Source: Saccharomonospora azurea NA-128
GTDB taxonomy: Bacteria > Actinomycetota > Actinomycetes > Mycobacteriales > Pseudonocardiaceae
Length of the DNA: 52,305 nucleotides
Direction: 5' to 3'
Assembly (NCBI RefSeq): GCF_000231055.2
Contig: NZ_CM001466.1
Coordinates: 3,155,483-3,207,787 of the forward strand
Positions 28,555 through 43,085 of this stretch are shown one piece after another (position 1 is the first letter of the stretch; each line of letters starts with the position of its first letter). The translations under genes and the position numbers were made by a program. The notes beneath the pieces are model-generated. The model saw only the letters and a list, made by a program, of their open reading frames with translations. It was not told the origin of the DNA and made no database searches.

Positions 28555-28629
28555 TTTACGTGCACTCCTCGGCTTTTGGAGTCCTTTGTGGACGATCTGC
28601 GTTCAAGATCGAAAAGGAGTACGGTGATC

Positions 28630-29076
28630 ATGTCGGTCGCCGAGGAAGTGAGGGTTCACCACGTGGATGAGCACATGCGCATCGGTGAAGTGTCCGCCCG
28701 GACGGGCCTTTCCCTGCGCACCATCCGCTACTACGAGGAAGTGGGACTGGTGACCCCCAGTGCGCGCAGTCAGGGCGGTTTCCGCCTCTACACCGAACCG
28801 GACGTCACGCGCCTGCGCCTCGTGCGCCGGATGAAGCCCCTCGGGTTCCAGCTCGACGAGATGAGGGAGCTGCTCGGCCTGCTGTATCCGGGTCACGGCG
28901 TGGACGACGGCGTTCCGACGCTCGACGAGCGTGAGTTGTCGAGGCTGCGCGAGTTCACCGAGCGCGCGGAACGCCGGTGCGCCGAGCTGCGCGCCACACT
29001 CGACGTCGCCGAGGACTTCGCCGCCATGCTCCGCGCCAGCCTGGCGCGGCACACGGAGCGAGCCCGCCGAACCTGA
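28630..29076 (+). CDS. MerR-family transcriptional regulator
   Basis: A 148-residue protein: an N-terminal extension of about 15 residues, then the MerR winged helix MRIGEVSARTGLSLRTIRYY and EEVGLVTPSARSQGGFRLYT, followed by a coiled-coil dimer helix (to about 140). No cysteines suggest a metal site. An AAGGAG lies about 10 bases before the ATG at 28630. The protein is short, without a large ligand domain. Repeat cluster (a) begins 15 bases after the stop. Confidence 0.88.
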   Translation: MSVAEEVRVHHVDEHMRIGEVSARTGLSLRTIRYYEEVGLVTPSARSQGGFRLYTEPDVTRLRLVRRMKPLGFQLDEMRELLGLLYPGHGVDDGVPTLDERELSRLREFTERAERRCAELRATLDVAEDFAAMLRASLARHTERARRT

Positions 29077-29090
29077 CCGTCACCCCGAAC

Positions 29091-29247
29091 ATCGTGTCCG
29101 CGCCCCAGGGACGCGTGTCCGCGCTTCAGGGACGCGTGTCCGCAGTTCCCGGACGTCCCCGGGGAGTGGTCGGGCGCCTCGGCGTACCGGAAGTGCGAAC
29201 ACGCGTGCGCAGAGTGCGGACACACGTGCGCAGGGCGCGGACACGAT
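29091..29247. repeat. cluster (a) of 21-bp GTGTCCGC repeats, inverted arrangement
   Basis: The left arm has three tandem units GTGTCCGC-N5-AGGGAC-GC (29094-29114, 29115-29135, 29136 onward). The right arm has three units of the opposite strand in which AGGGAC is replaced by GCGCAC. The outer 15 bases (ATCGTGTCCGCGCCC at 29091-29105) are repeated inverted and perfect at 29233-29247. The cluster fills the gap between the convergent MerR and ADP-ribosylglycohydrolase genes. Confidence 0.85.
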
Positions 29248-29254
29248 GTCGGGG

Positions 29255-30193
29255 TCAGGCGAGGTGCTCGGCGTAGAGGTGGAGTTGGGCGGCGGCCTCC
29301 AGGCGGGACACCGCCTGGCGCGGCAACGTCGCGTACCCGCTGTGCGCACCCGCCAGCGCCCCGGCCATCGAGGCGACCGTGTCGGTGTCTCCACCCGCGC
29401 GGATCGCGAACCTCATCGCCGCGCTCGGATCACCCGCGTTGCGCAGGAACGACAGGAGAGCCAGCGGTACCGACCCGGGCGCCGACACGTCGTTGCCCAG
29501 CGCCGCGGCGGCCTGTGCCGGGTCGGCACGCTGCTCGACGAGCTCCACCACGCGGTCGAACTTGTCCTGCCACAACGGCGACGGCACGGCGGGCCGGACC
29601 GAGTCGACGAAGTCGCCCGCCCGCACCGGCTCGTCGGGCGCGAGTGACAGCGCGACATGCGTGGCCACGGCCTGGCACACCGCACCGTGCAGCGCGTCGT
29701 CGTGGGCGTGGGTGACCTCGGTGCTGCGTCGGGCGAGTGCCGCGACCTGCCCGGAGTCGGTGCCGACGAGCGCGACCGGCGCGACGCGCATCGCGCCGCC
29801 GTTGCCGAACGACCCCTCGGGGTAGACGGCGCGGATCGCCTCCCGCCACGGCGTGCCTTCCACGATCAGCCGGAACGACGTGGTCACGCCGCCGCCGTAG
29901 CCGCGCCACGGTTCGGCGTGCCAGGTGTCGGCGAACTCGCGGGCGAGCAGGTCGAGGTCAACGAACTTCTCCGGCTCGCGCGCGTCGCCCCGCCGCTGGG
30001 CCAGGTGCCGGGCGAGCACGAGTGCCAGCGCGGTGTCGTCGGTGTGGGGCAGCGTGTCGGTGGCATTCTCCTTGGCGACGATGTCGGCGTCGGTGACCCC
30101 GACCTTGCCTTCGAAGGGAGCGCCGAGGCAGTCGCCGAGTGCGAGTCCGAACAGCAGACCGCGCGCCTTCTCGATGCGGGACGTGTCATCCAT
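29255..30193 (-). CDS. ADP-ribosylglycohydrolase family protein
   Basis: A 312-residue DraG/ARH-fold protein: the start KARGLLFGLALGDCLGAPFE, the metal loop TDDTALALVLARHL (TDDT), GNGGAMRVAPVALVG, and the second metal cluster FAIRAGGDTDTVASMAGALAGA (described in two parts). It likely removes ADP-ribose from proteins or hydrolyses related N-glycosidic bonds with two Mg ions. The start ATG at 30193 is MDDTSRIEKARG. Repeat cluster (a) lies at its 3' end. Confidence 0.92.
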   Translation of the reverse strand: MDDTSRIEKARGLLFGLALGDCLGAPFEGKVGVTDADIVAKENATDTLPHTDDTALALVLARHLAQRRGDAREPEKFVDLDLLAREFADTWHAEPWRGYGGGVTTSFRLIVEGTPWREAIRAVYPEGSFGNGGAMRVAPVALVGTDSGQVAALARRSTEVTHAHDDALHGAVCQAVATHVALSLAPDEPVRAGDFVDSVRPAVPSPLWQDKFDRVVELVEQRADPAQAAAALGNDVSAPGSVPLALLSFLRNAGDPSAAMRFAIRAGGDTDTVASMAGALAGAHSGYATLPRQAVSRLEAAAQLHLYAEHLA

Positions 30194-30284
30194 CGCCGGT
30201 TCCTCTCGCCGTCTCGCGACACGGTCGGACACCTCGCCGGTACCCTGGACCGGATATGTGCACTTCAGACCTAAACAGCTTCGC

Positions 30285-31901
30285 ATGACCACTCGTGTGA
30301 GCGCAGCCACTTCTTCGGACGGTGACGTCGCAGCGCAGGCGCGCCGACGACGCTCCTTCGCCGTCATCAGCCACCCCGACGCGGGCAAGTCGACGTTGAC
30401 GGAGGCGTTGGCGCTGCACGCGCGCGTCATCTCCGAGGCGGGGGCCGTGCACGGCAAGGCGGGCCGGCAGGGCGTGGTGTCCGACTGGATGGAGATGGAG
30501 CGTGCCCGTGGCATCTCCATCACGTCGGCGGCGTTGCAGTTCGCCTACGGCGACGCCGTGGTGAACCTGCTCGACACGCCCGGTCACGCGGACTTCTCCG
30601 AGGACACCTACCGCGTGTTGTCGGCGGTCGACTCGGCGGTGATGCTTCTGGACGCCGCGAAGGGCCTGGAGCCGCAGACGTTGAAGCTGTTCGACGTGTG
30701 CCGCCACCGGGGCATTCCGGTGATCACGTTCATCAACAAGTGGGACCGGCCCGGTCGGGAGGCGTTGGAGCTCTGCGACGAGCTCACGGAACGGATCGGG
30801 CTGACTCCCATGCCGCTGACGTGGCCGGTCGGGGAGGCCGGTCGATTCCGCGGTGTCGTGGACGTCACCGACGGCGCGTTCGTGGCCTTCGAGCGCACCG
30901 CGGGCGGCGCGACGGTGGCTGGGGAGAACCGGTTGCCCGCCGACCGCGCCGAGGCGGAGCTGGGTGAGGACTTCACGCGCGCCACCGAGGAACTCGAACT
31001 CGTGGCCGCGTCGGGCGGCGAGTTCGACATCGAGCGGTACCTGCAGGGCAGCGCGACGCCCGTGCTGTTCGGGGCGGCCGTGCTGAACTTCGGGGTGCGC
31101 CACCTGCTGGACCTGCTGGTGCAGCTCGCGCCGCGGCCCGAGCCCCGGGTGGACGTCGACGGCAGACCCCGTCCGCTGGACGACGAGTTCTCGGCGTTCG
31201 TGTTCAAGGTGCAGACCGGCATGGATCCGGCCCACCGCGACCAGGTGGCGTTCGCGCGCGTGTGCTCGGGCGTGTTCGAGCGGGGCATGGTGGTCACGAA
31301 CGCCACCACGAAGCGGCCGTTCGCCACGAAGTACGCCCACCAGGTCTTCGGCCAGCAGCGTTCCACAGTGGACACCGCGTATCCCGGTGACGTGATCGGC
31401 CTGGTGAACGCCTCGGCGTTGCGGGTCGGCGACACCTTGTACGCCGGAAAGCCCGCGGTGCGCTACCCGGGCCTGCCGAGCTTCGCGCCGGCCTACTTCG
31501 CCGTCGCGCGGCCCGCCGACCTCAGCAAGGCCAAGCAGTTCCGCAAGGGCGTCGAGCAGTTGTCGTCGGAGGGCGTGGTGCAGCTCCTGACCTCCGACCT
31601 GCGAGGTGATGCCGCGCCCGTGTTCGCCGCGGTCGGGCCGATGCAGTTCGAGGTCGCCGCCCACCGGATGGAGCACGAGTTCAACTCGCCCGTCAAGCTC
31701 GACCGGCTGCCGTACTCGACGGTGCGCAGGCTGGTCGATCCGGCGCAGCGCGGGATCGTGGACGCGGGCCGCAACAGCGAGGTGCTGACCCGCACCGACG
31801 GCACCGACCTCGCCCTGTTCGCCGACGACATGAGCATGCGCCTGCTGGTTCGCCGCTATCCGGAGCTGAAGCTGGAGGCGCTGGTCGCGACGGGCGACTG
31901 A
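30285..31901 (+). CDS. prfC: peptide chain release factor 3 (RF3)
   Basis: A 538-residue translational GTPase: G1 SHPDAGKST, G2 region with RGISITSAALQF, G3 DTPGHADFSEDTYR, G4 NKWDRPGR, followed by domain II (EFSAFVFKVQTGMDPAHRDQ) and domain III (VGPMQFEVAAHRMEHEFN). RF3 recycles RF1/RF2 after termination. The length is typical (about 530). The ATG at 30285 starts MTTRVSAATSSDG; longer readings run into the divergent gene and are not coding. Confidence 0.95.
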   Translation: MTTRVSAATSSDGDVAAQARRRRSFAVISHPDAGKSTLTEALALHARVISEAGAVHGKAGRQGVVSDWMEMERARGISITSAALQFAYGDAVVNLLDTPGHADFSEDTYRVLSAVDSAVMLLDAAKGLEPQTLKLFDVCRHRGIPVITFINKWDRPGREALELCDELTERIGLTPMPLTWPVGEAGRFRGVVDVTDGAFVAFERTAGGATVAGENRLPADRAEAELGEDFTRATEELELVAASGGEFDIERYLQGSATPVLFGAAVLNFGVRHLLDLLVQLAPRPEPRVDVDGRPRPLDDEFSAFVFKVQTGMDPAHRDQVAFARVCSGVFERGMVVTNATTKRPFATKYAHQVFGQQRSTVDTAYPGDVIGLVNASALRVGDTLYAGKPAVRYPGLPSFAPAYFAVARPADLSKAKQFRKGVEQLSSEGVVQLLTSDLRGDAAPVFAAVGPMQFEVAAHRMEHEFNSPVKLDRLPYSTVRRLVDPAQRGIVDAGRNSEVLTRTDGTDLALFADDMSMRLLVRRYPELKLEALVATGD

Positions 31902-31916
31902 CGTCGCGTCCCGGGC

Positions 31917-32381
31917 TCAGGCGGAAACCGCCGTGCAGAGGTAGCAGCCCGCAGTCGCGCTGCGAACGTGCACGTAGTCCACGTCGGGGCGGGCGAGCAG
32001 CTCGCCGAGTGTGGTGCCGGCGTCGGCGTGGGCGATCCGCTCGGCGTGGACGAGTCGCCTGCCCCGCCCGTAGCAGTTGAGTAGCAGTCCGCTCCGGCCG
32101 AGGCGGGCGGGATAGGTCGCCGTGTCGGTGTACGGCGCGCAGGAGCGCGCGTGGACGAAGACGGGCCCGGGCAGCGGGAGGTCCTCGGTGTCCCGGAACG
32201 GGTCGTAGGTGAACGCGACGAGCCGCTCCACGCCCGGCTCGATCACGTCGAGGCACACCCGGCACGGTGCCGGTTCGACGGGCACCTCGCTCCATGCCGG
32301 GTGGTCGTAGTCGGGAGCCCGCATCGTGCTGCGGACCTGGTCGGCGACGGCGGTGTCCATGGGGACGATGCGGAAGGCCAT
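31917..32381 (-). CDS. DUF1203 family protein
   Basis: A 154-residue protein matching DUF1203: PCRVCLDVIEPGVERLVAFT with a CxxC, YDPFRDTEDLPLPGPVFVHA, YARS-type ACAPY segment, and the C-terminus DYVHVRSATAGCYLCTA. Function unknown. Two Cys pairs and a conserved GPVFVHA stretch suggest metal or redox chemistry, but no experimental role is known to me. Convergent with prfC. Confidence 0.85.
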   Translation of the reverse strand: MAFRIVPMDTAVADQVRSTMRAPDYDHPAWSEVPVEPAPCRVCLDVIEPGVERLVAFTYDPFRDTEDLPLPGPVFVHARSCAPYTDTATYPARLGRSGLLLNCYGRGRRLVHAERIAHADAGTTLGELLARPDVDYVHVRSATAGCYLCTAVSA

Positions 32382-32451
32382 GCGGGCAGCCTGCCGCCGG
32401 CCGACGTCCGGTACCGGCGGTTTTCGGACGTGAACCCGCGACGTGTCGCTG

Positions 32452-33084
32452 TCAGATCCACCCGCGTTCGCGCGCGATCCTCGCCGCGTCGGTCCGGTTC
32501 CGGGCGTCGAGCTTCGTCATGGCGGTGGACAGGTAGTTGCGGACGGTGCCTTCGGCCAGGTGCAGCTGTTGCGCGATGGTGCGGTTGGTCGCCCCCTCGC
32601 CGACCAACCGCACCAGCTCCCGTTCCCGGTCCGTCAGCTGGTCGGCCTGGTCCCAGGCGGCCAGCGCCAGTTCGGGTGCGATCACCGTTCCCCCGGCGTG
32701 CACCGTGCGCAGCGCGTCGGCCAGTTCGGTGATCGGTGAGTCCTTCAGGACGTAGCCGGTCACACCGGCGTTGAGCGCCCGGCGGAGGTAGCCGCTACGG
32801 GCGAACGTCGTGACGATGAGCACCCGGGTGCGGCTGCCGCGTCGCCGCAGTTCGGCGGCGACGTCCAGGCCGGTTCCCCTCGGCATCTCGATGTCGGCGA
32901 CGAGCACGTCCGGGTCGTGTTCGGCCACCGCGTCCAGTGCCTCCGCGCCGTTGGTCGCGATGGCCTGCACCGTGATGTCGGGCTGCAGGCCGAGCAGTTC
33001 GGCGAACGCCTCGACCACCATGGTCTGGTCCTCGGCCAGCACCACGGAGATGCCGTCGGTGTGCTCGCCGTCGTGGCCCGTCAT
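32452..33084 (-). CDS. NarL/LuxR-type response regulator (DesR-like)
   Basis: A 210-residue protein: receiver domain with phospho-acceptor Asp in VLVADIEMPRGTGLDV and switch residues in VTTFARSGYLRRALNAGV and YVLKDSP, then the LuxR HTH LTDRERELVRLVGEGATNRT and IAQQLHLAEGTVRNYLSTAM. It is the last gene of the operon; its ATG shares one base with the stop of the histidine kinase (TGATG). It probably activates the upstream ABC genes. Confidence 0.93.
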   Translation of the reverse strand: MTGHDGEHTDGISVVLAEDQTMVVEAFAELLGLQPDITVQAIATNGAEALDAVAEHDPDVLVADIEMPRGTGLDVAAELRRRGSRTRVLIVTTFARSGYLRRALNAGVTGYVLKDSPITELADALRTVHAGGTVIAPELALAAWDQADQLTDRERELVRLVGEGATNRTIAQQLHLAEGTVRNYLSTAMTKLDARNRTDAARIARERGWI

Positions 33085-34211
33085 CAGGTCGCCACCTCCA
33101 GTGGTACCGCGATCGTGACCGTCGTCCCCGCCGTGCCCGAGTGCTCCACTCGACCACCGAGCACACTGATCCGTTCCCGCAACCCGCTCAGGCCGTTGCC
33201 GGGGCGGTGGTGTCCTCCGACGCCGTCGTCGGCGATCACGAGCCGGAGCTCCCCGTCCGCGGCCGACAGTCCGACGCAGCAGGTGCGCGCGTGTGCGTGG
33301 CGGGCGACGTTGGTGATCGCCTCGCGCAACGCCAGTGCCAGTTCGTGCTCGGTGGACCCGACCAGTTTCACCGCCGGGTCGCGTCGCGTCGACAGCTCCA
33401 CGCCCGCGCTCGCCAGCGTGGTCCGTGCCGACTCCAGCTCGGCGTCGAGTGTCGTGTGCCGGAGCCCGCTCACCGCGGCCCGCACCTCGGCCAGCGCGGC
33501 GCGAGCCGTCTCCTCCGCCTGTGCCGCTGCGGCGCGGGCGCGTTCGGGGTCGCTGTCGACGAGGTGGCGGGACAGCTGCGCGTGCATGACGACCGACGTG
33601 AGCGAGTGACCGAGCAGGTCGTGCAGATCCCTGGCGATCCGCTCGCGTTCGGAGAGGGTGGCGAGGTATTCCACCCGGGCGTTGCGCAACCGCAGGTCGG
33701 TGGCCTCCCGGGCCTGGTCGGCCTGTTCGATCTGGGTGAGGCCGATGATCCAGGTGAACAGCAGCGACGGCCCCAGTCCCCAGAGCCGCCACGGCAGCGG
33801 GATCGGCGAGAGCCACAGGAGCAGCAGCATCACGACCGTCAACCCGACGAACCAGCGCAGTGCCACCCGCCGGGATTCGTGGATGCCGGCTGTGGCCGCG
33901 GCGTAGACGAACAGCACCGCGGCGCCCGAGTTCAGGGGAGTCGTGAGCACGCCGAGCACGGTCGTGGGAACGGCCGACCCCCAGCGCGCCAGGTCGGGTC
34001 GCCGCCAGGCGAGGACGTAGAGGGGCAGGAAGACCACGATGATCCCCGCCACCAGCAACCAGTCCCACACACCCGCGTCCGGAGCGTTGATCGGGTGGAA
34101 GAACGGAATGGCCAGGTAGACCAGGTGGAACCACCCGATCTCGCGCCAGGCCGCAGGCTCGGACGGGGGCCCCGTCCGAGCGGCGGATTGGACGTTCGCG
34201 GTGGCGGTCAT
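33084..34211 (-). CDS. DesK-like sensor histidine kinase
   Basis: A 375-residue HisKA_3-type kinase: five or six transmembrane helices to about residue 160, the phospho-accepting His in ERIARDLHDLLGHSLTSVV, and a HATPase_c with EAITNVARHAHA (N box) and VIADDGVGGHHRPGNGLSGL (G boxes). DesK-type kinases sense membrane state or lipophilic compounds. The ATG overlaps the stop of the permease (ATGA). Paired with the downstream DesR-like regulator. Confidence 0.93.
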   Translation of the reverse strand: MTATANVQSAARTGPPSEPAAWREIGWFHLVYLAIPFFHPINAPDAGVWDWLLVAGIIVVFLPLYVLAWRRPDLARWGSAVPTTVLGVLTTPLNSGAAVLFVYAAATAGIHESRRVALRWFVGLTVVMLLLLWLSPIPLPWRLWGLGPSLLFTWIIGLTQIEQADQAREATDLRLRNARVEYLATLSERERIARDLHDLLGHSLTSVVMHAQLSRHLVDSDPERARAAAAQAEETARAALAEVRAAVSGLRHTTLDAELESARTTLASAGVELSTRRDPAVKLVGSTEHELALALREAITNVARHAHARTCCVGLSAADGELRLVIADDGVGGHHRPGNGLSGLRERISVLGGRVEHSGTAGTTVTIAVPLEVAT

Positions 34212-34948
34212 GGTCGCGCACGACGATAGGACAGGGCGGCGACACCGGTCAGGATCACGGTCCAGACACCCAACACCGCGAGGTGTCCCGCCGTCGCCGC
34301 GCCGTCGAGCTGGGCCACGGCCAGCTCCGAGAGGTGGTACGTCGGCAGGAATCCCGCGACGGTGCCGAAGAAGTCGGGCAGCATCTCCAGCGGCATCCAC
34401 AGCCCGGACACGACGGCGCTCGGCATGAGGATCGCGTTGAGGATCGCCGTGGTGGCGTTCGGCCTGGCCTGGAACCCGACCGCGAGGCTGAGCAGGGCGA
34501 ACGGCACGGCTCCGAGCAGCAGCACGACGTACAGGCGGAGCAGTTCGAGGGCCGAGGCCTGCAGCACCCCGGTCGCGGCGGCCGCGGTGGCGGTCATCGT
34601 CAGCAGCACACCGATCGCGTACGGCAACGCGGCGAGCACCTTGGCCGCGAGCGTCACCGGCAACGGCACCGCCTGCACTCGCTTCGCCTTCAGCCAGCCG
34701 ATCTCCCGGTCGTGTGCGACGCCGATGCCCGGGCTCAGCAGCGTCACGGCCAACACGCCGAAGGTGCCGAACGTGCCGAGCATCCGCGTACCCGTGGACA
34801 TCTCGCCTGTCGTCTGGTCGCCGAACATCGACACGAACAGCGCGAAGAAGCCGACCGGCATCAGAACCGAGAAGAACAGCGCGACGGGCTCCCGCACGAT
34901 CGCGCGCAATTCGTCCAGGAGCTCCACACCGAGCAGACGCCGGGTCAC
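34208..34948 (-). CDS. ABC-2 type transporter permease
   Basis: A 246-residue permease with six helices and the ABC-2 pattern (ELLDELRAIVREPVALFFSV at the start, LMPSAVVSGLWMPLEMLPDF near helix 5, a periplasmic loop, and TYHLSELAVAQLDG). It is GTG-initiated and overlaps the ATPase stop by 4 bases (GTGA). It forms an exporter with the adjacent ATPase. The substrate is unknown; similar DesKR-linked exporters handle lipophilic drugs or antibiotics in other actinobacteria. Confidence 0.9.
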   Translation of the reverse strand: MTRRLLGVELLDELRAIVREPVALFFSVLMPVGFFALFVSMFGDQTTGEMSTGTRMLGTFGTFGVLAVTLLSPGIGVAHDREIGWLKAKRVQAVPLPVTLAAKVLAALPYAIGVLLTMTATAAAATGVLQASALELLRLYVVLLLGAVPFALLSLAVGFQARPNATTAILNAILMPSAVVSGLWMPLEMLPDFFGTVAGFLPTYHLSELAVAQLDGAATAGHLAVLGVWTVILTGVAALSYRRARP

Positions 34949-35844
34949 CGGAGCACCTCCCGGGCCTGCGAGGTCAGCGCCACGACGGCTTCCTCCAGAC
35001 CGACCCCCTCGACCCGGAGATCACTCAGGTCGGGGTCCTCGGCGAGCAGAACGCGCAGCAGTGCTTCGGGTGTGCGCGTGCCGAGGCGGACCAGCTCGCC
35101 GTCGCGGTCGAACGACGCCACTCCCGGGAGGTTCGCGACGACGTCGTCGTCCAGCCGGGTGCGTGCGACGACCGTCCGGTCGGGCAGCCGCGACACCAGT
35201 TCGTCCGGTGTGCCGGAGGTCAGGACCCGGCCCCGGTCGAGTACCACGACCCGGTCGGACACCGCGGCCGCCTCGTCGATCAGGTGGGTGGTCAGCAGGA
35301 TGGCGGTGCCCTTCTCGCGGCGCCTCGCGAGGATCCGCCAGAACCGCCTGCGGGTGGGGACGTCCAGACCGACCGTCGGTTCGTCGAGCACGAGCAGCGC
35401 AGGGTCGTTCACGAGCGCCATGGCCAGTTGCAGGCGCTGCTTCTGGCCTCCGGAGAGCTTCGCCGCCCGACGGTGCGACAGCTCGGTGAGCTCCAGTTCC
35501 GCCATGATCGGTGCGGCGCTGGAGCGCGGTCGGCCGCCGCGCACGGCCGCACCCGACACCAGCTCGCTCACCGTCAGGGTGCTCGGCTGGCCCAGAGACT
35601 GCTGTACGACGCCGACCTTCCGCCGCGTCACGGCGTGCTTCGGGTCTCCACCGGCCAGGACGATCTCGCCGTGGCCACGGGGCAGCAGCCCCACCACCAG
35701 GTTCACCAACGTCGTCTTGCCCGCGCCGTTCGGGCCGAGCAGGGCGACGCACTCACCCGCCTCGACGGTGAGGTCGACTCCGTCGAGGGCGCTCGTCCCT
35801 CCGTAGCGGTGTCGCAGACCCCGCGCCGTCAACACTGTTCGCAC
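34945..35844 (-). CDS. ABC transporter ATP-binding protein
   Basis: A 299-residue ATPase with Walker A LLGPNGAGKTTLV, Q-loop VGVVQQSLG, signature LSGGQKQRLQLAMAL, Walker B LLVLDEPTVGLD and switch His in LLTTHLIDEA. The C-terminal 80 residues are an extra regulatory domain found in DrrA/NatA-type exporter ATPases. It is GTG-initiated with GGAGG 4 bases upstream. The first gene of the overlapping four-gene operon ATPase-permease-kinase-regulator. The start region contains direct repeats of ACTGTTC, which could be part of an operator. Confidence 0.92.
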   Translation of the reverse strand: MRTVLTARGLRHRYGGTSALDGVDLTVEAGECVALLGPNGAGKTTLVNLVVGLLPRGHGEIVLAGGDPKHAVTRRKVGVVQQSLGQPSTLTVSELVSGAAVRGGRPRSSAAPIMAELELTELSHRRAAKLSGGQKQRLQLAMALVNDPALLVLDEPTVGLDVPTRRRFWRILARRREKGTAILLTTHLIDEAAAVSDRVVVLDRGRVLTSGTPDELVSRLPDRTVVARTRLDDDVVANLPGVASFDRDGELVRLGTRTPEALLRVLLAEDPDLSDLRVEGVGLEEAVVALTSQAREVLR

Positions 35845-35968
35845 TGTTCCTCCATCGGCTTCCGATGTGGAACAGTGCCCGCCCGACGACGTCGACCGGT
35901 AGTGACGGCGTGGCAGGTGCTGCGACTGACGAATGTCACCTCACCCGGCGGCGCCGCGCGGGGCGAGC

Positions 35969-36166
35969 TCAGCCGGTCAGGGCTGCGGCCACGCACCACA
36001 CGGCGGCTGCCGTCAGAGCCGCGGCCACCACGCCCGGCCACCATTCCGTGGTGGTCGCGGCGAGGAACGCCTGCGCTGCCGCCGTCGCTGCGAACGCGAC
36101 TGCGAGGACGAACAGCGCGAAACGCGTGGTGGGCCACGGTTTCGGGACACGTCGCGGCATCGACAC
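35969..36166 (-). CDS. small two-helix membrane protein
   Basis: A 65-residue protein with a basic start (MPRRVPKPWPTTRF) and two hydrophobic helices (about 17-35 and 44-63) rich in Ala and Val. No family is recognised. It sits alone upstream of the ABC operon, about 125 bases from its start. The frame has normal codon bias, but no strong ribosome binding site is seen. Confidence 0.5.
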   Translation of the reverse strand: MSMPRRVPKPWPTTRFALFVLAVAFAATAAAQAFLAATTTEWWPGVVAAALTAAAVWCVAAALTG

Positions 36167-36682
36167 CGGCCTCCTCGGTGCTTGACAAGGGTGATATCGC
36201 TCGTTATGCGCCGCAAGTTACGTGCGGGCGTTTCACGTCACATGTCGGACGATGGGCCGGACCTTCCTCGGTCGGCGCCGGAGTGAGGTGAGGTCAGTGG
36301 TTTGGGCCACCATTGCGCTCGGCGGGGAAAAGGCTCGCCGCTCGCCTCTCGCGGGAAGTTTCCGGCGGCGGAGCCGTCGGCTATTGGTCGATTACGCCGC
36401 GTTGTCGGCAGTGGTTTCGACCACGGGATGGGGCAAAGCGGTGAAGCTTGCCACAGTTATTGTGTGGATCAAGGGGCCGCTAGCCGGCCTGCACAGGAAA
36501 AACCAGCCGACGACGTGGTCAGGCACGTGACTGAGGTCCAGCCCACGTGAGGATGCACATCACACAGGTCTTTGCCGATTTCGTCGTCGCAAATAGAGTT
36601 CGGTTGACAATTTTCGCCTACGGGTCGGGTCTCGTGACTCCGTGATCGTCGCTTCTGTCGCGACGGGCGGGCACATGTCATA
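36167..36682. other. long intergenic region upstream of the conservon
   Basis: About 515 bases with comparatively AT-rich stretches (near 36420-36480 and 36580-36620). Open frames here do not look like proteins. I see no strong repeat. It may hold upstream regulatory sites for the conservon promoter. Confidence 0.4.
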
Positions 36683-36712
36683 TTGACTCGCGTGAAGCAC
36701 TCTGCTTAATCT
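36683..36712 (+). promoter_or_regulatory. promoter of the conservon operon
   Basis: TTGACT (36683-36688), an 18-base spacer, and TAATCT (36707-36712). The predicted start point is near 36719, inside the adjacent palindrome. Confidence 0.6.
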
Positions 36713-36737
36713 CGCGCTAAGCGATGGCTTAGCGCGA
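36712..36737. promoter_or_regulatory. perfect 26-bp palindrome at the conservon transcription start
   Basis: Arms TCGCGCTAAGC and GCTTAGCGCGA separated by GATG. It begins at the last base of the -10 and covers the predicted start point, so it could be an operator or the first stem of the mRNA leader. Confidence 0.65.
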
Positions 36738-36803
36738 CTGGAGGCTGCGTGAAGTCCGTTGCACGGGTTGGGGGCCCATGAACTACCTGTCGCTGGAAGG
36801 GCC

Positions 36804-39560
36804 TTGAGCGCGTTGTTGAACAAGAGTGCCGCCGCACGCCGTGGGCGTTCGACCATCCGCACCCGAGTGCTCGCCATCGCCTTCATCCCGAGTCTGGTCT
36901 TCCTCCTGACCGGTGTCACGGTGGCCACGCTGCTCGTCGTCGACGCCGTCCAGACCAGGTCGTTCAGCACCAAGGTCCACGAAGCCGCGAGACCCGCCGG
37001 TGTGCTGTTCGCCAACGTGCGTGAGGAGCGCAGGCTCACGCTGCAGGAACTCGCCATGACCCGGTCGCTGCGGGCGGAGCTGTCGGAGCAACGCAAGCGC
37101 ACCGACGCCGCGGCCAAGGAGATGGCGGACGACCTGGAGAGCATCGCCGAGGACGCCCCGGACAACGTGCTGGCCAGCACGAAGGTCGCCGCGGAACGGA
37201 CCGCGCAGCTCACCGAGTTCCGGCAGCGCGTCGACGCCGACGACGTGTCGCTGCAGGAGGCCTACGACTTCTACAACGCGATCATCGACGCCTACGTGGT
37301 CGGCCTCAACGGCGTCGCGCAGGAGACCCCGAGCGCCGAGAGCGCGTACAAGCGCATGGTCGCGATGCCGCTGTTCGTGGCGGCCGACGGCATGTCCCGC
37401 GGTGACGCGCTCGCCGCCGCGGGCATCGCGAGCGGGGGACTGACCGAGCAGGAGTTCCGCACCTACATCGGCCAGGTCGGTGCCTACCACGCGACGTTGC
37501 AGCAGGCCGTGCCCGACATGATCCCGTCGGTCCGGGAGAAGTACGAAGCGCTGGTCTCCGGCGACGCGTGGAGCACGTTGACCAGCGTGGAGAACGCGTT
37601 CCTGCGCGGCAACACCACCGACCTCCCCGTGGCCGAGCCGGCCTGGCGTGCCGCGGCCGTCGAGGTCGGTGGCACGCTGTGGGACCTCTACGTCGAGCAG
37701 AGCACGGTGGCCACCGAGCTGGCGCTCGACGAGGCGGACTCGACGCTGTACACGATGATCACAGTTGGTGCCGCCGTCATCGCGGCCGCGCTGGGCGTGT
37801 TCCTGCTGGCGTGGCGGCTGTCCGACCGGCTGGTCAAGCGGCTCGTCGCACTGCGCGAGGCCACCTTGGAGGTCGCGCAGGAACGGATGCCGAGCATCGT
37901 CGAGCGGCTGCGCACCGGCGAACAGGTGGACCTGTCCACCGAGGTCTCCTACCTCGACCACGGTGACGACGAGATCGGCCAGGTCGCGGAGGCGTTCAAC
38001 GAGGCACAGCGCACCGCCATCGCCGCGGCGGTGGACGAGGCCAAGACCCGCGAAGGTACCCAGAAGGTCTTCCTCAACATCGCGCACCGGAGCCAGGTGA
38101 TCGTGCACCGGCAGCTGTCGGCACTCGACGCCGCCGAGCGCAAGCAGGAGGACCCCGACCAGCTGGACCTGCTCTTCCAGCTCGACCACCTGTCGACCCG
38201 GGCGCGCCGCAACGCCGAGAACCTGATCATCCTCGGTGGAGAGCAGCCCGGACGCCAGTTCCGCAACCCCGTGCCGGTGGGCGACATCGTGCGGGGCGCC
38301 ATCGCCGAGACCGAGGACTACAAGCGCGTCACCATGGGCAAGCTGCCCGCCACGGCCGTCGCGGGTCCCGTCGTCAGCGACCTGGTGCACCTGCTCGCCG
38401 AGCTGATCGACAACGCGACGTCGTTCTCGCCACCGCAGTCGCGGGTCGAGGTCCGCGGCGAACTCGTGGGCCGAGGCGTGGTCATCGAGATCGAGGACCA
38501 GGGCATCGGCATGGAGGACGACGACCTCAGCCGCTTCAACGAGATGATGAAGAACCCGCCGGACTTCAGCTTCATGGCGCTGTCCGAGGAACCGCGGCTG
38601 GGTCTCTTCGTGGTCGCCAGGCTCGCGGCGAAGCACGGATTCACCGTGACCCTGCGCGACTCCGCCTACGGCGGCACGCGGGCGATCGTGCTCGTGCGCA
38701 CCGAGCTGCTGAGCGACCTCCCCGAGGGTGAGTCGGTGTCGAAGCCGGCCGAGGCCGGAGCCGCGGCGGAGTCGGAGACGGCCGAGAGCTCCGCGGCGCC
38801 CATCAGCCGCAGGCCGAGGGCACTGCCCGCGCGGGGTGGTGGCGAGAAGGTCAACGGATCGCACGCCGTCGGCGTCAACGGCCCCGCACCCGCGGAGCCC
38901 GACAGCTCCGCGACCACCACGGTGCGGCGCGCCGCCGTCTCGCCCCCGCAGCTGCCCGCGGGCGAGGGTGATCGTCCCGAACTGCCTCGGCGCGGGCGCC
39001 GCGACAGCGACGCCCCGCCACCGGAACCGCAGGAACAATCCCCGAGCACGGTCGAGGGCGTGCACGGAGAACTCCCGGGAGATGCCGTGCTGGAGTGGTC
39101 GCCCGACCCGACACCGAGTGAACCGGGCAGGCACGCCCAGATCGAGGACGACGAGCAGGCCGCACCGACCCGGTACGTGCCCAAGCTGCAGCGGGAGGCG
39201 CCCAAGGCCGCTCGGCCCGCCGGCGAATCCCGCCCTCGGCACCAGGCCCGACCGGCGCCCGAACGCCCGGCTCAGCCCGGCGGTGCGGACACCCGCCCGC
39301 CCGCCGCGCCGTCGGCCCCGCCACCCCTCGACGGCGAAGGCAGGCCACCCCTGCCCCGGCGTCGCCGCCAGCAGAACCTGGCGCCCCAGCTCCGCGACGA
39401 CACGACCACGCTCGGCGCTGTGGGCGGTGACGAGGCCGCGGGCGGTGGAGACGACTACGACCCCGCGCCCGAGCAGGCCCGCAGCAGGCTCTCGGCGTTC
39501 CAGCAGGGAACCCGCCGAGCTCGACAGCACCAACCCGGCCCCGACGAGTCTGGAGACTGA
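36804..39560 (+). CDS. conservon sensor-like histidine kinase (CvnA type) with NIT domain
   Basis: A protein of about 918 residues: an N-terminal transmembrane helix (about 25-45), a large extracytoplasmic NIT-like helical domain (about 50-310), a second helix (about 315-335), a HAMP segment, then a long coiled helix with REGTQKVFLNIAHRSQVIV. A GHKL ATPase domain follows (ELIDNATSFSPP, IEDQGIGM, LGLFVVARLAAKHGFTVTL). The last 260 residues are Pro/Arg/Glu-rich and disordered. It is the membrane sensor of the four-gene Cvn system. The likely start is TTG at 36804 with GGAAGG upstream. It is 5 bases from the roadblock gene. Confidence 0.88.
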   Translation: MSALLNKSAAARRGRSTIRTRVLAIAFIPSLVFLLTGVTVATLLVVDAVQTRSFSTKVHEAARPAGVLFANVREERRLTLQELAMTRSLRAELSEQRKRTDAAAKEMADDLESIAEDAPDNVLASTKVAAERTAQLTEFRQRVDADDVSLQEAYDFYNAIIDAYVVGLNGVAQETPSAESAYKRMVAMPLFVAADGMSRGDALAAAGIASGGLTEQEFRTYIGQVGAYHATLQQAVPDMIPSVREKYEALVSGDAWSTLTSVENAFLRGNTTDLPVAEPAWRAAAVEVGGTLWDLYVEQSTVATELALDEADSTLYTMITVGAAVIAAALGVFLLAWRLSDRLVKRLVALREATLEVAQERMPSIVERLRTGEQVDLSTEVSYLDHGDDEIGQVAEAFNEAQRTAIAAAVDEAKTREGTQKVFLNIAHRSQVIVHRQLSALDAAERKQEDPDQLDLLFQLDHLSTRARRNAENLIILGGEQPGRQFRNPVPVGDIVRGAIAETEDYKRVTMGKLPATAVAGPVVSDLVHLLAELIDNATSFSPPQSRVEVRGELVGRGVVIEIEDQGIGMEDDDLSRFNEMMKNPPDFSFMALSEEPRLGLFVVARLAAKHGFTVTLRDSAYGGTRAIVLVRTELLSDLPEGESVSKPAEAGAAAESETAESSAAPISRRPRALPARGGGEKVNGSHAVGVNGPAPAEPDSSATTTVRRAAVSPPQLPAGEGDRPELPRRGRRDSDAPPPEPQEQSPSTVEGVHGELPGDAVLEWSPDPTPSEPGRHAQIEDDEQAAPTRYVPKLQREAPKAARPAGESRPRHQARPAPERPAQPGGADTRPPAAPSAPPPLDGEGRPPLPRRRRQQNLAPQLRDDTTTLGAVGGDEAAGGGDDYDPAPEQARSRLSAFQQGTRRARQHQPGPDESGD

Positions 39561-39565
39561 GGAAC

Positions 39566-39976
39566 ATGGCCAACTCGGTAGTCAACGAACTCGACTGGCT
39601 GCTCGACGACCTGTTGCGCCAGGTCGCGGGAGCCGACCGGGCCGTCGTCCTGTCGTCGGACGGCCTGCTCATCGGCCGGTCGAGCAACCTGTCCGAAGAG
39701 GACGGTGAGCACCTCTCGGCTGTCGCCTCGGCCTTCCAGAGCCTCGCGAGGGGAACGGGACGGCACTTCGGCGGAGGGCAGGTGAGGCAGACGGTGGTCG
39801 AGATGGACCACGCGTTCCTGTTCGTCACCGCGGCGGGCCGAGGCGCGTGCCTCGCCCTGCTGACGACCGAGGACGCCGACATGGGCATGGTCGCGTACTC
39901 GATGAACATGCTGGTGAAGCGCGTCGGTGCTCTGTTGAGTGCCGCGCCCCGGGTGGAGCCCCACACCACGCCATGA
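39566..39976 (+). CDS. roadblock/LC7 domain protein (CvnB type)
   Basis: A 136-residue roadblock/LC7 fold: LDWLLDDLLRQVAGADRAVV, LSSDGLLIGRSSNLSEEDGE, and FLFVTAAGRGACLALLTTED. In conservons this small protein regulates the GTPase (CvnD) as a GAP-like or scaffold partner. It overlaps the next gene by 4 bases (ATGA). Confidence 0.92.
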   Translation: MANSVVNELDWLLDDLLRQVAGADRAVVLSSDGLLIGRSSNLSEEDGEHLSAVASAFQSLARGTGRHFGGGQVRQTVVEMDHAFLFVTAAGRGACLALLTTEDADMGMVAYSMNMLVKRVGALLSAAPRVEPHTTP

Positions 39977-40344
39977 GTGACCAGGACGAGGAGATGTGGG
40001 ACGACGGGGGTGCGGGGCTCGTACGCTCGTACGTCGTGACCGGAGGCCGGACCCGCTCCGACAACTACGGCCTCGACATGATGACGCTGGTGGTGGCGCT
40101 GTGCACTCCAGCCGAGGCCACGCATCTCCCCGAGGAGTACGAGAGGATCGTACGGCTGTGCCAGCAACCGATGTCCGTGGCGGAGGTCGGAGGTCACATC
40201 GACCTCCCCCTGCCCGTGGTGAAGGTTCTCCTCAGTGATTTGATCGAGCAGAACTATGTGATCTTCCGTAAGGCCGCGCCTCCGAGCGAAGCACCCAACA
40301 AGCACGTACTGCAGGCGGTTCTCGATGGCATCCGCAAACTCTGA
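39973..40344 (+). CDS. DUF742 protein (CvnC type)
   Basis: A 123-residue DUF742 protein: GLVRSYVVTGGRTRSDNYGL, then a winged-helix-like half with EYERIVRLCQQPMSVAEVGG and LPLPVVKVLLSDLIEQNYVI. Probably a nucleic-acid-binding or adaptor component of the conservon. It overlaps the GTPase gene by 20 bases. Confidence 0.92.
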   Translation: MSDQDEEMWDDGGAGLVRSYVVTGGRTRSDNYGLDMMTLVVALCTPAEATHLPEEYERIVRLCQQPMSVAEVGGHIDLPLPVVKVLLSDLIEQNYVIFRKAAPPSEAPNKHVLQAVLDGIRKL

Positions 40345-40918
40345 CGACCGACGCCTCCGTGCAACGGCGGTGAAACTGCTGATCGCCGGTGGGTTCGGCG
40401 TCGGCAAGACGACCATGGTGGGCTCGGTGAGCGAGGTGCCGCCGCTGCGTACCGAGGAGATGCTGACCTCGGCGTCCGAAGGCGTCGACGACCTCTCCGG
40501 AGTGGAGCAGAAGAGCACCACCACGGTGGCGCTCGACTTCGGCCGGATCACGATCAGCCCCGACCTCATCCTGTACCTGTTCGGCACGCCCGGGCAGGAC
40601 CGGTTCTGGTTCATGTGGGACGAGCTGGCCCAGGGCGCGCTCGGCGCCGTGGTCCTCGCCGACACCCGCAGGCTGGAGACGTGCTTTCCCGCCGTGGACT
40701 TCTTCGAGCGGCGGGGACTGCCGTTCGTCGTCGGCGTGAACTGCTTCGACAGCGCCTACCGGTACGGCACCGAGGAGGTGCGGGCGGCGCTCGACGTCGG
40801 ACCGCACGTGCCGGTGCTGCTCTGCGACGCCCGCGACCGAGAGTCCACCAAGCAGGTCCTGGTGACGCTGATCCAGCACGTCATGGCCTCGGCGAACATG
40901 GTCCCGGCCCCGTACTGA
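40325..40918 (+). CDS. conservon small GTPase (CvnD type)
   Basis: A 197-residue MglA-like GTPase: P-loop GGFGVGKTTMVGSVSE, switch regions with TTTVALDFGR, G3 LFGTPGQDRFWFMWDE, and NCFD in place of NKxD, which is usual for this subfamily. In Streptomyces, Cvn GTPases switch developmental or antibiotic output. It is the last gene of the operon; repeat cluster (b) starts ten bases after its stop. Confidence 0.92.
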   Translation: MASANSDDRRLRATAVKLLIAGGFGVGKTTMVGSVSEVPPLRTEEMLTSASEGVDDLSGVEQKSTTTVALDFGRITISPDLILYLFGTPGQDRFWFMWDELAQGALGAVVLADTRRLETCFPAVDFFERRGLPFVVGVNCFDSAYRYGTEEVRAALDVGPHVPVLLCDARDRESTKQVLVTLIQHVMASANMVPAPY

Positions 40919-40927
40919 CCCCTGGCC

Positions 40928-40993
40928 ATCGTGTCCGCGAGTTGTGCACGCGTGTCCGCGTTGCAGGGACACGTGTTCGCGCTTCCGGGACGC
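40928..40993. repeat. cluster (b) of 21-bp GTGTCCGC repeats, direct
   Basis: Three adjacent 21-bp units (40931-40951, 40952-40972, 40973-40993), all in the form GTGTYCGC-N5-6mer-RC, preceded by ATC. The cluster fills the gap between the convergent conservon GTPase and methyltransferase genes. Confidence 0.85.
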
Positions 40994-40998
40994 GAAGC

Positions 40999-41619
40999 TC
41001 AGCCGGCGGGGCGTGCTGTCACCTGGATCATGGGACTCGCGGGCACCCAACGGGGGATCTCCGAGAACTCCTCCACCGCGTCGAGGTGGAAGTCGCCCCG
41101 GCGGCGCACGGTGCCCAGCGTGTCCCGGTTGGGATGACAACCCGCGCCGACGACCTTCCACACGGGCGTGACGAGGTCCTGCACGCGTGCGAGTCGGCCG
41201 TCGCCGCGAACGTGTTCGAGCAGCGCCAGCGTCCCGTCGTCCTTCAGCACCCGCCGGGCTTCCCCCAACGCCGCCTCCGGGTCGGCGACGGTACAGAGCA
41301 CCAAGGTGAACACGACGGCGTCGACGCTGTCGTCGGGCCAGGGCAGCGCCTCGGCCGACGCGTCGGTGACCTCGACCGGAACGTCGGTCTCCGCGGCACG
41401 ACGAGCCAGCCGGGCACGCATCGCCGCGTCCGGCTCGGCAGCGATGATGCGTTCGGCGGAACGCAGGTGGGGGAGGTTCGCACCTGTGCCTGCGCCGACG
41501 TCGAGGACGGTGCCGGTCAGGCCGTGCAACAGCTGCTCACGTCGTCGGCCGAGGAACAGCCGCTCGGCGTGCGCGTTCATCCGGTCGTAGTAGGCGGCGA
41601 AGAGCCGGTGTGCTCGCAC
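40999..41619 (-). CDS. class I SAM-dependent methyltransferase
   Basis: A protein of about 206 residues: VRAHRLFAAYYDRMNAHAER at the start, SAM motif I VLDVGAGTGANLPHL, acidic motif II IIAAEPDAAM, and the VFTLVLCTVADPEAALGEAR and RRVLKDDGTLALLEHVR motifs of the Methyltransf_11 fold. Substrate unknown; the pattern fits small-molecule O- or N-methyltransferases of the UbiE/YcgJ kind. The start is uncertain: GTG at 41619 or 41628, because the GGGAGGA lies between them. Confidence 0.88.
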   Translation of the reverse strand: MRAHRLFAAYYDRMNAHAERLFLGRRREQLLHGLTGTVLDVGAGTGANLPHLRSAERIIAAEPDAAMRARLARRAAETDVPVEVTDASAEALPWPDDSVDAVVFTLVLCTVADPEAALGEARRVLKDDGTLALLEHVRGDGRLARVQDLVTPVWKVVGAGCHPNRDTLGTVRRRGDFHLDAVEEFSEIPRWVPASPMIQVTARPAG

Positions 41620-41657
41620 TCCTCCCACGCTAGTGGCGAACGTGGCGCTGCGCTTGG

Positions 41658-41800
41658 GACGCCGTGTCCGCGCGCTGCGCACGCGTGTTCGCGTCGCACG
41701 TCGCGGACACGGGTCCCTGAAGCGCGGACACGGGTCCCTGAAGCGCGGACACGGGTCCCTGAAGTGCGGACACGCGTGCGCAGACTGCGGACACGGCGTC
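41658..41800. repeat. cluster (c) of 21-bp GTGTCCGC repeats, inverted arrangement
   Basis: A left arm of two units (41658 onward) and a right arm of five units in the opposite orientation, three of which are near-identical copies (GCGGACACGGGTCCCT-GAAGC, 21 bp). The outer 14 bases GACGCCGTGTCCGC (41658-41671) are repeated inverted and perfect at 41787-41800. The right end overlaps the TGA of glcF. It lies between glcF and the methyltransferase gene. Confidence 0.85.
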
Positions 41801-43085
41801 AGGTCGGCTTGCCGTTCAGGGATTGGTCGAGCAGTTGCACCGGGTGCAGCATCGGGATGTCGTCGTCCAGGTAGCGGCGGATCTGCAGGAGGCACCCCGG
41901 ATTGGCCGTCACCAGCAGGTCGGGCGCCACGGTGCGCACGTTGTCCGCCTTGCGCTGCCCGAGTTCGGCGGCGGGCTCCGGTTGCACGAGGTTGTAGATG
42001 CCCGCCGACCCGCAACACAGCTCCGCCTCGGGGAGGTCGACCACGTCGAGCCCGGGGATCGTGCGCAGCACTGCCCTCGGCTGGTCGCGCACCCCTTGGG
42101 CGTGGCCGAGGTGGCAGGCGTCGTGGTAGGCGACCTTCGCCTCGATCCGCCGCCTCGGGGCCTGGGGTTCCAGCTCGGCCAGCAGCTCGGTCACGTCGCG
42201 CACCTTGGCGCTGAAGTCGCGCGCGCGGTCGGCCCAGTCGGGGTCGTCGGCGAGCAGGTGGACGTACTCCTTCATCGAGGATCCGCACCCGGCGACGTTG
42301 ACGACGATGGTGTCGACCGGCAGTTTCTCGAAGGTGGCGATGGTGCGCTTGGCACGGTCGGCGGCGCTGCCGGACCGGCCCGCGTGCAGTTCCAGCGCCC
42401 CGCAGCAGCCTTGTTGCCTCGGTGTCAACACCTCGCAGCCCTCCGCGGCGAGCACGCGCTGGGTGGCGGCGTTGACCTCGTGGAAGAACACGTCCTGCAC
42501 GCAGCCGGAGAGGAGGGCGACACGTCGCCGCACCGAACCCTTCGGCCGCACGCGCCGAGGCAGGGACGCGAACGCCTCCCGCAGGCGCACGGGCGGGAGC
42601 AACGCCTGCGTGGCCCGCAGCCGTGGTGGGAGGACGCGTTCCATCAGCTTCGGCAGCCCCGACTTCTGGTAGGCCTGGCCGAACACCGCCGCGACGCGGA
42701 GCCTGCGGCGGTACGGGAACAACGCGAAGATCGCGTTGCGGAACAGCCGGTCGGACGGACGCCGCTCGACGTTCCGCTCGATCTGCGGCCGGGTGGCCTC
42801 CAGCAGCCGGTCGTACTGCACGCCCGACGGGCAGGCGGTCACGCAGGCCATGCAGCCCAGGCACGCGTCGATGTGCTGGGTGAACGCGCCTTCCAGCCCG
42901 ATCTCGCCGCGTTCGGCGAGGTCCATGAGGTAGATGCGGCCGCGCGGCGAGTCCATCTCCTCGCCCCAGAGCTGGTAGGTGGGGCACGTCGGCAGGCAGA
43001 ACCCGCAGTGCACGCAGTCGTCGAGCAGCTCGCGCTCGGGCGGGTGCTGGGAGTCGAAACTCGACTGTCCGAAGAGCTCGGTCAC
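41799..43085 (-). CDS. glcF: glycolate oxidase iron-sulfur subunit
   Basis: A 428-residue protein: two 4Fe-4S ferredoxin motifs CVHCGFCLPTCP and CLGCMACVTACP in the first 120 residues, then two CCG domains with QGCCGALELHAGR and LCCGSAGIYNL. It carries electrons from the FAD subunits to the quinone pool during glycolate oxidation. It is GTG-initiated and overlaps the glcE stop (GTGA). The 3' end is embedded in repeat cluster (c). Confidence 0.92.
   Translation of the reverse strand: MTELFGQSSFDSQHPPERELLDDCVHCGFCLPTCPTYQLWGEEMDSPRGRIYLMDLAERGEIGLEGAFTQHIDACLGCMACVTACPSGVQYDRLLEATRPQIERNVERRPSDRLFRNAIFALFPYRRRLRVAAVFGQAYQKSGLPKLMERVLPPRLRATQALLPPVRLREAFASLPRRVRPKGSVRRRVALLSGCVQDVFFHEVNAATQRVLAAEGCEVLTPRQQGCCGALELHAGRSGSAADRAKRTIATFEKLPVDTIVVNVAGCGSSMKEYVHLLADDPDWADRARDFSAKVRDVTELLAELEPQAPRRRIEAKVAYHDACHLGHAQGVRDQPRAVLRTIPGLDVVDLPEAELCCGSAGIYNLVQPEPAAELGQRKADNVRTVAPDLLVTANPGCLLQIRRYLDDDIPMLHPVQLLDQSLNGKPT

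Follow-up and report, generated by a model that had tools for sequence, protein, structure and literature searches.

We analyzed a 52,305-nucleotide stretch of Saccharomonospora azurea NA-128 DNA (the window: contig NZ_CM001466.1, positions 3,155,483 to 3,207,787), in which three clusters of a strictly phased tandem repeat built on the octamer GTGTYCGC lie at the 3' ends of genes. An original prediction, made by a model from the letters of the window, had described 16 copies of this octamer or its complement in these clusters, each cluster adjoining a stop codon and lacking a classical terminator. All 16 octamers were found in place, and the spacing within each arm (a run of octamers on one strand) is 21 bp throughout all three clusters, that is, two turns of B-DNA. 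Clusters 1 and 2 separate convergent genes, encoding a MerR-family regulator and an ADP-ribosylglycohydrolase in the first case, and a small GTPase-like protein and a methyltransferase in the second. Cluster 3 lies downstream of a glcF-like gene, for which its long arm is in the sense orientation. Gene calls and protein domains confirmed these positions relative to the stop codons.

The window contains 29 octamers in total. Shuffling of the window gave an expectation of 12.6 (standard deviation 3.3), and at least 29 octamers occurred in 0 of 100 shuffles; the 13 copies outside the clusters correspond to the chance number for the whole window. A simple terminator scan of positions 28800-42000 found no terminator-like site with a T-tract at the three clusters (three sites elsewhere vs 3.5 expected), as had been predicted, and an Rfam scan of the window at the gathering threshold returned two tRNAs only, with no RNA family at the repeats. 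A plasmid search with the locus gave 144 matching records; among the five listed, the matches fall over genes where a gene is annotated.

Table. Repeat clusters and neighboring genes, in window coordinates.
Feature	Position	Strand	Description
Cluster 1, left arm	29094..29156	+	Three 21-bp units; octamers at 29094, 29115, 29136; 17 nt past the MerR gene stop
Cluster 1, right arm	29182..29244	-	Three units; octamers at 29195, 29216, 29237; 10 nt from the ADP-ribosylglycohydrolase stop
Cluster 1, outer cap CCCCGAACATC	29083..29093	+	Precedes the first unit
Cluster 1, opposite cap CCCCGACATC (minus strand)	29245-29254	-	Partly complementary to the CCCCGAACATC cap at 29083..29093
Cluster 2, one-armed	40931..40993	+	Three sense units; octamers at 40931, 40952, 40973; 12 nt past the GTPase-like stop
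Cluster 3, short arm	41664..41692	+	Octamers at 41664, 41685
Cluster 3, apex GTCGCACGTC, 10 nt	41693..41702		Separates the facing octamers
Cluster 3, long arm	41703..41794	-	Octamers at 41703, 41724, 41745, 41766, 41787; 4 nt from the glcF-like stop
MerR-family regulator gene	28624..29076	+	PF13411; 3' end at cluster 1
ADP-ribosylglycohydrolase gene	29255..30193	-	PF03747; 3' end at cluster 1
Small GTPase-like protein gene (ATP_bind_1)	40370..40918	+	PF03029; 3' end at cluster 2
Methyltransferase gene	40999..41619	-	PF08241; 3' end toward cluster 2, 5' end toward cluster 3
glcF-like Fe-S protein gene	41799..43085	-	PF02754, Fer4; 3' end at cluster 3

Arrays are modular 3'-end elements of the Pseudonocardiaceae

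The window clusters are members of a Pseudonocardiaceae family of modular 3'-end elements, as shown by their position, polarity, phasing, conservation at orthologous sites, exchange with hairpins at some of these sites, and taxonomic range. The whole genome (4.76 Mb, one contig) holds 278 exact GTGTYCGC-N13-GTGTYCGC pairs, compared to 0 for the reversed-pattern control. We then called 1144 genes in a contiguous sample of 1.24 Mb (2.76-4.00 Mb, including 3,100 N), using a purpose-made simple codon-model caller rather than an annotation. This sample contains 427 octamers, of which 190 are intergenic and 166 fall within 41 arrays. Same-strand octamers are separated by 21 bp in 94 cases, by 42 bp in 39 and by 63 bp in 15, and never by 20 or 22 bp. 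Outside the arrays, only 30 of 261 octamers are intergenic, and as gaps make up 13% of the bases, isolated octamers have no preference for gaps.

Placement of the arrays is strongly tied to the ends of genes. In the 1.24-Mb sample, 40 of the 41 arrays lie outside called genes, and 34 have a sense stop codon within 40 bp. Similar anchoring was observed for 20 of 26 arrays in the first half of the genome (chosen by pattern matches from a partial list of places), and, in 400 kb from each of two relatives, 8 of 10 (G006) and 11 of 13 (G002), for a total of 73 of 90 over all stretches. The original prediction that the repeats always sit at gene 3' ends is thus correct for the window and too absolute beyond it. 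Its 3'-end preference, put forward beforehand as refutable, held: arrays are not scattered in genes or promoters, one two-octamer match falling inside a gene, and the family exists outside the window and in related genomes. Counted by arm, 44 of 63 lie in sense orientation no more than 40 nt from a stop, vs 7% of random octamer positions in gaps, and this anchoring holds even in gaps hundreds of nucleotides long. When gaps of 60 nt or longer are sorted by type, arrays are present in 17 of 81 convergent ones, against 20 of 354 tandem and 1 of 182 divergent ones. In other genera, two-armed arrays have a sense stop within 60 bp in 25 of 27 cases (G020) and 13 of 16 (G031). One-armed arrays are polar: among the 35 in the stretches analyzed, a stop within 60 nt exists only on the sense side for 16, only on the antisense side for 4, on both sides for 9 and on neither for 6 (16 vs 4, binomial p 0.012).

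We found no support for the edge of the array supplying the stop codon, as TGA ends 34 of 44 array genes and 936 of all 1144 genes. As a separate observation based on small numbers, TAA stops are seemingly enriched in array genes of the 2.76-4.00 Mb sample (6/44 vs 50/1144, Fisher p 0.01). Directly after one array (L070, approximately 3588298-3588345), which follows an M20 peptidase gene, three words resembling DnaA boxes (TTGTCCACA type) are found in the space up to a DUF559 gene; the G002 ortholog of this locus carries them too. GTGTYCGC itself resembles part of that box; we mention the likeness in passing and propose no known protein for the octamer.

Across 94 units, the main letters of the consensus are GTGTYCGC-RNBYYNSGYACGC, an octamer followed by a 13-nt spacer, which is broader than the predicted second half of AGGGAC or GCGCAC. 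The unit profile is not palindromic, and inversion exists between arms. An arm opens with a loose outer cap, CCYRMCRYC (135 arms), the last C of which is present in 98%. In two-armed arrays, facing octamer starts are most commonly 18 bp apart (47 cases), then 39 bp (18 cases). The center, most often 10 nt long, forms a near-palindromic apex of the type GYCGYRCGRC, in which Watson-Crick pairing, and with it perfect symmetry, is avoided at positions 1, 2 and 5. Long perfect palindromes are unstable in bacteria, and this instability would explain at the DNA level why perfect symmetry is avoided.

Genomes of the genus and family were compared under G numbers, G000 being that of S. azurea. Among 12 Saccharomonospora genomes, eight have 137-359 pairs, one (G007) has 3, and three (G003, G004 and G005) have none. 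Loss of the arrays, use of another unit or misplacement of these genomes may account for the latter four, which are useful for finding a putative partner protein. In the family sample, at least one match was found in 126 of 297 genomes, most with 1-3; outside the genus, matches are abundant in G020, G031, G068, G038 and G189. The reversed control matched in seven genomes, once each except for 29 matches in G248, because of the variant unit of that genome. Variant units keeping the 21-bp period exist in other genera: GTGTTCGCC... (G189, G090), GTGTCCCA... (G248) and GTGTCCTG... (G139). In G248 (L230-L241), we also observed a 21-bp repeat, CGCTTGTGTCCCACCTTCCGG, at several gene ends, which reads as the same family with the core GTGTCC, and in G162 (L218, L222), 21-bp units (GTGATCGC...GATCACGC) that are palindromic within the unit fill a convergent gap.

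A three-unit pattern run on a collection of 84,980 species, from which the S. azurea genome and its near relatives may be excluded, yielded 33 stretches from four organisms only, Prauserella shujinwangii, Amycolatopsis arida, Saccharomonospora sp. NB11 and Qaidamihabitans albus, all Pseudonocardiaceae. Amycolatopsis belongs to this family, Prauserella and Qaidamihabitans were assigned to it by taxonomy look-up, and Saccharomonospora is placed there in an abstract (PMC3035233). A looser four-unit pattern matched in 16 of 397 genomes of the order. Twelve of these are of the same family, and the remaining four each have their two or three matches confined to a single place; the reversed control of this pattern gave a single match, in G006.

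Arrays are kept at orthologous sites. Between G000 and G002, whose proteins are 84.5% identical, 248 syntenic gaps were compared: 7 carry arrays in both, 5 in G000 only, 2 in G002 only and 234 in neither (Fisher 2.6e-9), a result that concerns G002 as the single partner, as the G006 stretch is not syntenic (59 reciprocal hits, 2 shared gaps). At one of the G002-only gaps (3696843), an array overlapping a gene call is present in G000 too. Folding the array-free partner of the six other unshared gaps revealed three ordinary hairpins (perfect stems of 13, 15 and 8 bp) and three sequences with nothing clear. The gap of window cluster 1 also carries arrays in G001, G002, G006, G008 and G011, with other unit numbers and spacers; no array was found there in G009 and G010, and for G003, G004, G005, G007 and G020 the gap is masked or cannot be compared. 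The arrays at 3566139, 3852702 and 3878412 are one-armed in the matching gap of a second species as well.

Perfect stems of at least 13 bp occur in array-free gaps of 60-200 nt at frequencies of 0.40 in convergent (n = 42), 0.08 in tandem (n = 212) and 0.00 in divergent gaps (n = 98), compared to 2 of 15 convergent gaps with arrays (80-246 nt; p 0.065). Such a shortage is what substitution of arrays for hairpins would seem to give; taken alone it is weak, and it is no proof of termination. Two further arrangements were observed. At 697544-698010 of G002 lies a very long array, one arm of which has approximately twelve identical units and faces six octamers of mixed type; the G000 ortholog has a 15-bp perfect hairpin. 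At 3691208 of G000 and 719148 of G002, a reversed arrangement (<>) surrounds a strong hairpin, with stem changes matched between both species.

A predicted roadblock and its alternatives

From their sequence, the arrays look like an unnamed kind of transcription stop or boundary signal. RNA polymerase can be halted by bound proteins and afterwards released by Mfd, and orientation can make a difference (PMC10310618). The reading that we favor, although we would rate it somewhat short of probable, is that the arrays are polar DNA-level 3'-end elements, predicted to act as roadblock terminators when bound by a putative protein. An arm would start a few bases past the stop with its loose cap and continue with an octamer every 21 bp along the direction of transcription of the upstream gene, so that the octamers would offer candidate sites on one face of the helix to a putative sequence-specific DNA-binding protein. 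Once bound, this protein would stall RNA polymerase arriving from the sense side, and transcription would end; two arms would provide one such stop for each convergent gene, and in two-armed arrays a strong RNA hairpin may help. The original prediction had offered a bidirectional terminator and a factor-binding site as separate readings, either of which may apply; the tie to gene 3' ends and the place in the terminator niche are borne out, and the evidence leans toward a site at the DNA level.

Several observations weigh against a roadblock or speak for a terminator made of RNA, in which the two arms would base-pair in RNA transcribed from either strand, releasing the polymerase with no U-tract, one-armed arrays being decayed or having hidden partners, a reading that we consider unlikely. 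Of the 40 intergenic arrays folded, 21 two-armed ones fold strongly (mean z-score -6.6 and -5.7 on the two strands, vs -1.2 for 160 array-free 3' regions), and so do window cluster 1 (29080-29229, -85.2 kcal/mol, z -4.4) and cluster 3 (41658-41798, minus strand, -89.3 kcal/mol, z -5.3). Even the one-armed cluster 2 (40919-40998) folds at z -2.6, 12 of 35 one-armed arrays have an octamer with one mismatch on the opposite strand within 130 bp, and upstream of the array at 3566139 lies a degenerate inverted unit with which it pairs, a matched change being present in the second species. Cross-arm agreement is found in the outer caps and, above chance, at spacer positions 17-21 (398 vs 367.8), as expected of a hairpin, and arrays are exchanged for ordinary hairpins at some orthologous gaps. 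Also counting against a roadblock, 7 of the 41 arrays have no sense-stop anchor, some lying upstream of genes and a few between divergent genes; a search for RNA genes as hidden neighbors of unanchored arrays (ARAGORN, 16 loci) found one tRNA-Gly, approximately 1.1 kb from the array in L035, and this explanation was dropped. On the other hand, 18 of the 40 folded arrays are one-armed, and their average structure (mean z -0.7 and -0.3) does not exceed that of shuffles; some of them are one-armed in two species, and exact 21-bp phasing within one arm needs no hairpin. If the transcript hairpin were the selected form, the sense strand should have more G.U wobble pairs than A.C mismatches. This is so for 48 imperfect hairpins from unidirectional 3' regions without arrays (22:5; 10:7 in convergent control hairpins, where both strands count). 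For 41 unidirectional two-armed arrays, the ratio within octamers is 20:20 (Fisher one-sided p 0.008 against 22:5), a count that, like those for the spacers and apex of these arrays, pools several related genomes sharing arrays and does not represent independent events. Because G.U and A.C are equal there, the octamer does not look kept for RNA pairing. The same arrays gave 52:51 in spacer middles and 34:33 in the apex. Here too some counts lean toward a hairpin: tail positions 16-21 have a ratio of 15:7 (p 0.13), and octamer and tail together, at 35:27, differ only moderately from the control (Fisher p 0.019). An earlier, smaller set gave 12:10 for the octamer and 9:9 for the tail. Cross-arm agreement was assessed on 112 strings of 68 nt, the one length retained among the matches listed, where the search pattern fixes most octamer columns and leaves position 5 as the only informative one. 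No covariation was observed at this position (75 pairs vs 75.7 expected), and at positions 10-15 the likeness of facing spacers falls below chance (309 vs 333.4 expected, p 0.02), spacer middles thus avoiding Watson-Crick pairing as the apex does. Agreement at positions 17-21 also exists between neighbors within one arm (562 vs 547.9) and may reflect an array-wide likeness; we dropped cross-arm covariation as a proof of RNA structure on account of this and of the octamer result.

Three other readings fit parts of the same evidence. That the arrays are a selfish or inert satellite, surviving only just past stop codons where it is harmless, would suit the fast change of unit number and spacers between species, the likeness of neighboring spacers in one arm at positions 10-15 (492 vs 404.2 expected), as tandem duplication gives, and some large, uniform arrays such as the one at 697544 of G002; it is made quite improbable by anchoring within 40 nt, sense polarity, the recurring cap and apex, conservation between species with proteins 84.5% identical, and a single IS605-type Y1 transposase with no units nearby. 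Sites for a nucleoid protein or topoisomerase, which would anchor or relax positive supercoils at the ends of transcription as gyrase does at bacterial interspersed mosaic elements (BIME), would account for the DNA-level signature, two-turn phasing and convergent preference. Such a role needs no one-armed polarity (16 vs 4), and the arrays apparently stand in for hairpins instead of supplementing them (p 0.065); we judge it improbable, despite the precedent of enterobacterial repetitive extragenic palindromes (REP) and BIME, which bind gyrase, IHF and DNA polymerase I and aid Rho-dependent termination (PMC2817692). Finally, the sense RNA just past the stop might load Rho, being rich in C (38.8% C, 33.4% G, 19.5% T and 8.3% A in sense units) and weakly folded in one-armed arrays, which are mostly sense-oriented. 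We hold this very improbable, as two-armed arrays bury the sequence in a hairpin. Rho requires neither a fixed octamer nor a 21-nt period.

Many genes of high-GC actinomycetes end transcription without a recognizable U-tract terminator, by a mechanism that is debated. A family that occupies the niche of terminators, polar, phased and in part seemingly free of hairpins, would open another mode of ending transcription to direct tests, and an array is a ready site for fishing out the putative protein. It is conceivable, if rather doubtful, that polar, phased arrays of a DNA-bound putative protein make up a bacterial termination system, the counterpart of eukaryotic roadblocks of the Reb1/TTF-I type, in which the recognition word would change fast (GTGTCCGC, GTGTTCGCC, GTGTCCCA and GTGTCCTG in different genera) and the 21-bp phase would stay constant. 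If only the hairpin matters, the arrays would still be a large, unnamed and modular terminator family of the Pseudonocardiaceae, useful as insulator parts.

Relation to known repeats and terminators

No description of this repeat was recognized among titles and the beginnings of abstracts in a library holding few subscription papers and no preprints. In the passages seen, the publications on the S. cyanea and S. viridis genomes mention repeats only as counts of clustered regularly interspaced short palindromic repeats (CRISPR) or in a reference, and the main text of a satellite survey that includes Amycolatopsis mediterranei (PMC6749651) contains neither "21 bp" nor Saccharomonospora. Whereas a plain satellite or variable number tandem repeat runs head to tail with no rule of position or orientation, the arrays obey both rules and are conserved between orthologs. 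They share their place with intrinsic terminators and are exchanged with them at some orthologous gaps; however, the window clusters have no site combining hairpin and T-tract, and one-armed arrays are on average devoid of a hairpin.

REP/BIME elements sit at gene 3' ends, and the arrays, nearly all intergenic (40/41) and mostly at gene 3' ends (34/41), resemble them in this respect. Many intergenic copies and inverted arrangements are further features shared with these elements, which go with REP-associated tyrosine transposases (RAYT), as are links to termination and DNA-binding proteins (PMC2817692). However, REP/BIME are short palindromes with a GTAG-type foot, whereas the arrays are one-directional 21-bp repeats of fixed phase, kept at orthologous sites, and no RAYT was found. 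The mobile, REP-like origin suggested by the original prediction was abandoned: the one Y1 transposase of the genome (PF01797) is half of an IS605-type pair (Y1_Tnp + OrfB_IS605), and its 3,354-bp locus contains no octamer.

DNA uptake sequences of Neisseria and Pasteurellaceae likewise have a short conserved word that forms inverted pairs where genes end and stands in for terminators (PMC1852404). The arrays differ in being tandem, phased and without a T-tail, and lone octamers are not in excess; their chance-level number outside arrays (13 vs 12.6 in the window; 30 of 261 intergenic in 1.24 Mb) led us to reject this reading. With protein roadblock terminators, such as yeast Reb1 and the Pol I terminator proteins, the arrays would share short protein sites past genes, able to act in one orientation (PMC10310618, including the orientation of Rap1; the Pol I case is taken from abstracts). 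This is an analogy only, as the protein here is putative and the polymerase bacterial. Judged by these features, and with no named family found, the arrays are of the same kind as REP/BIME, uptake-sequence terminators and other repeats of gene 3' ends, yet lack traits that define those two.

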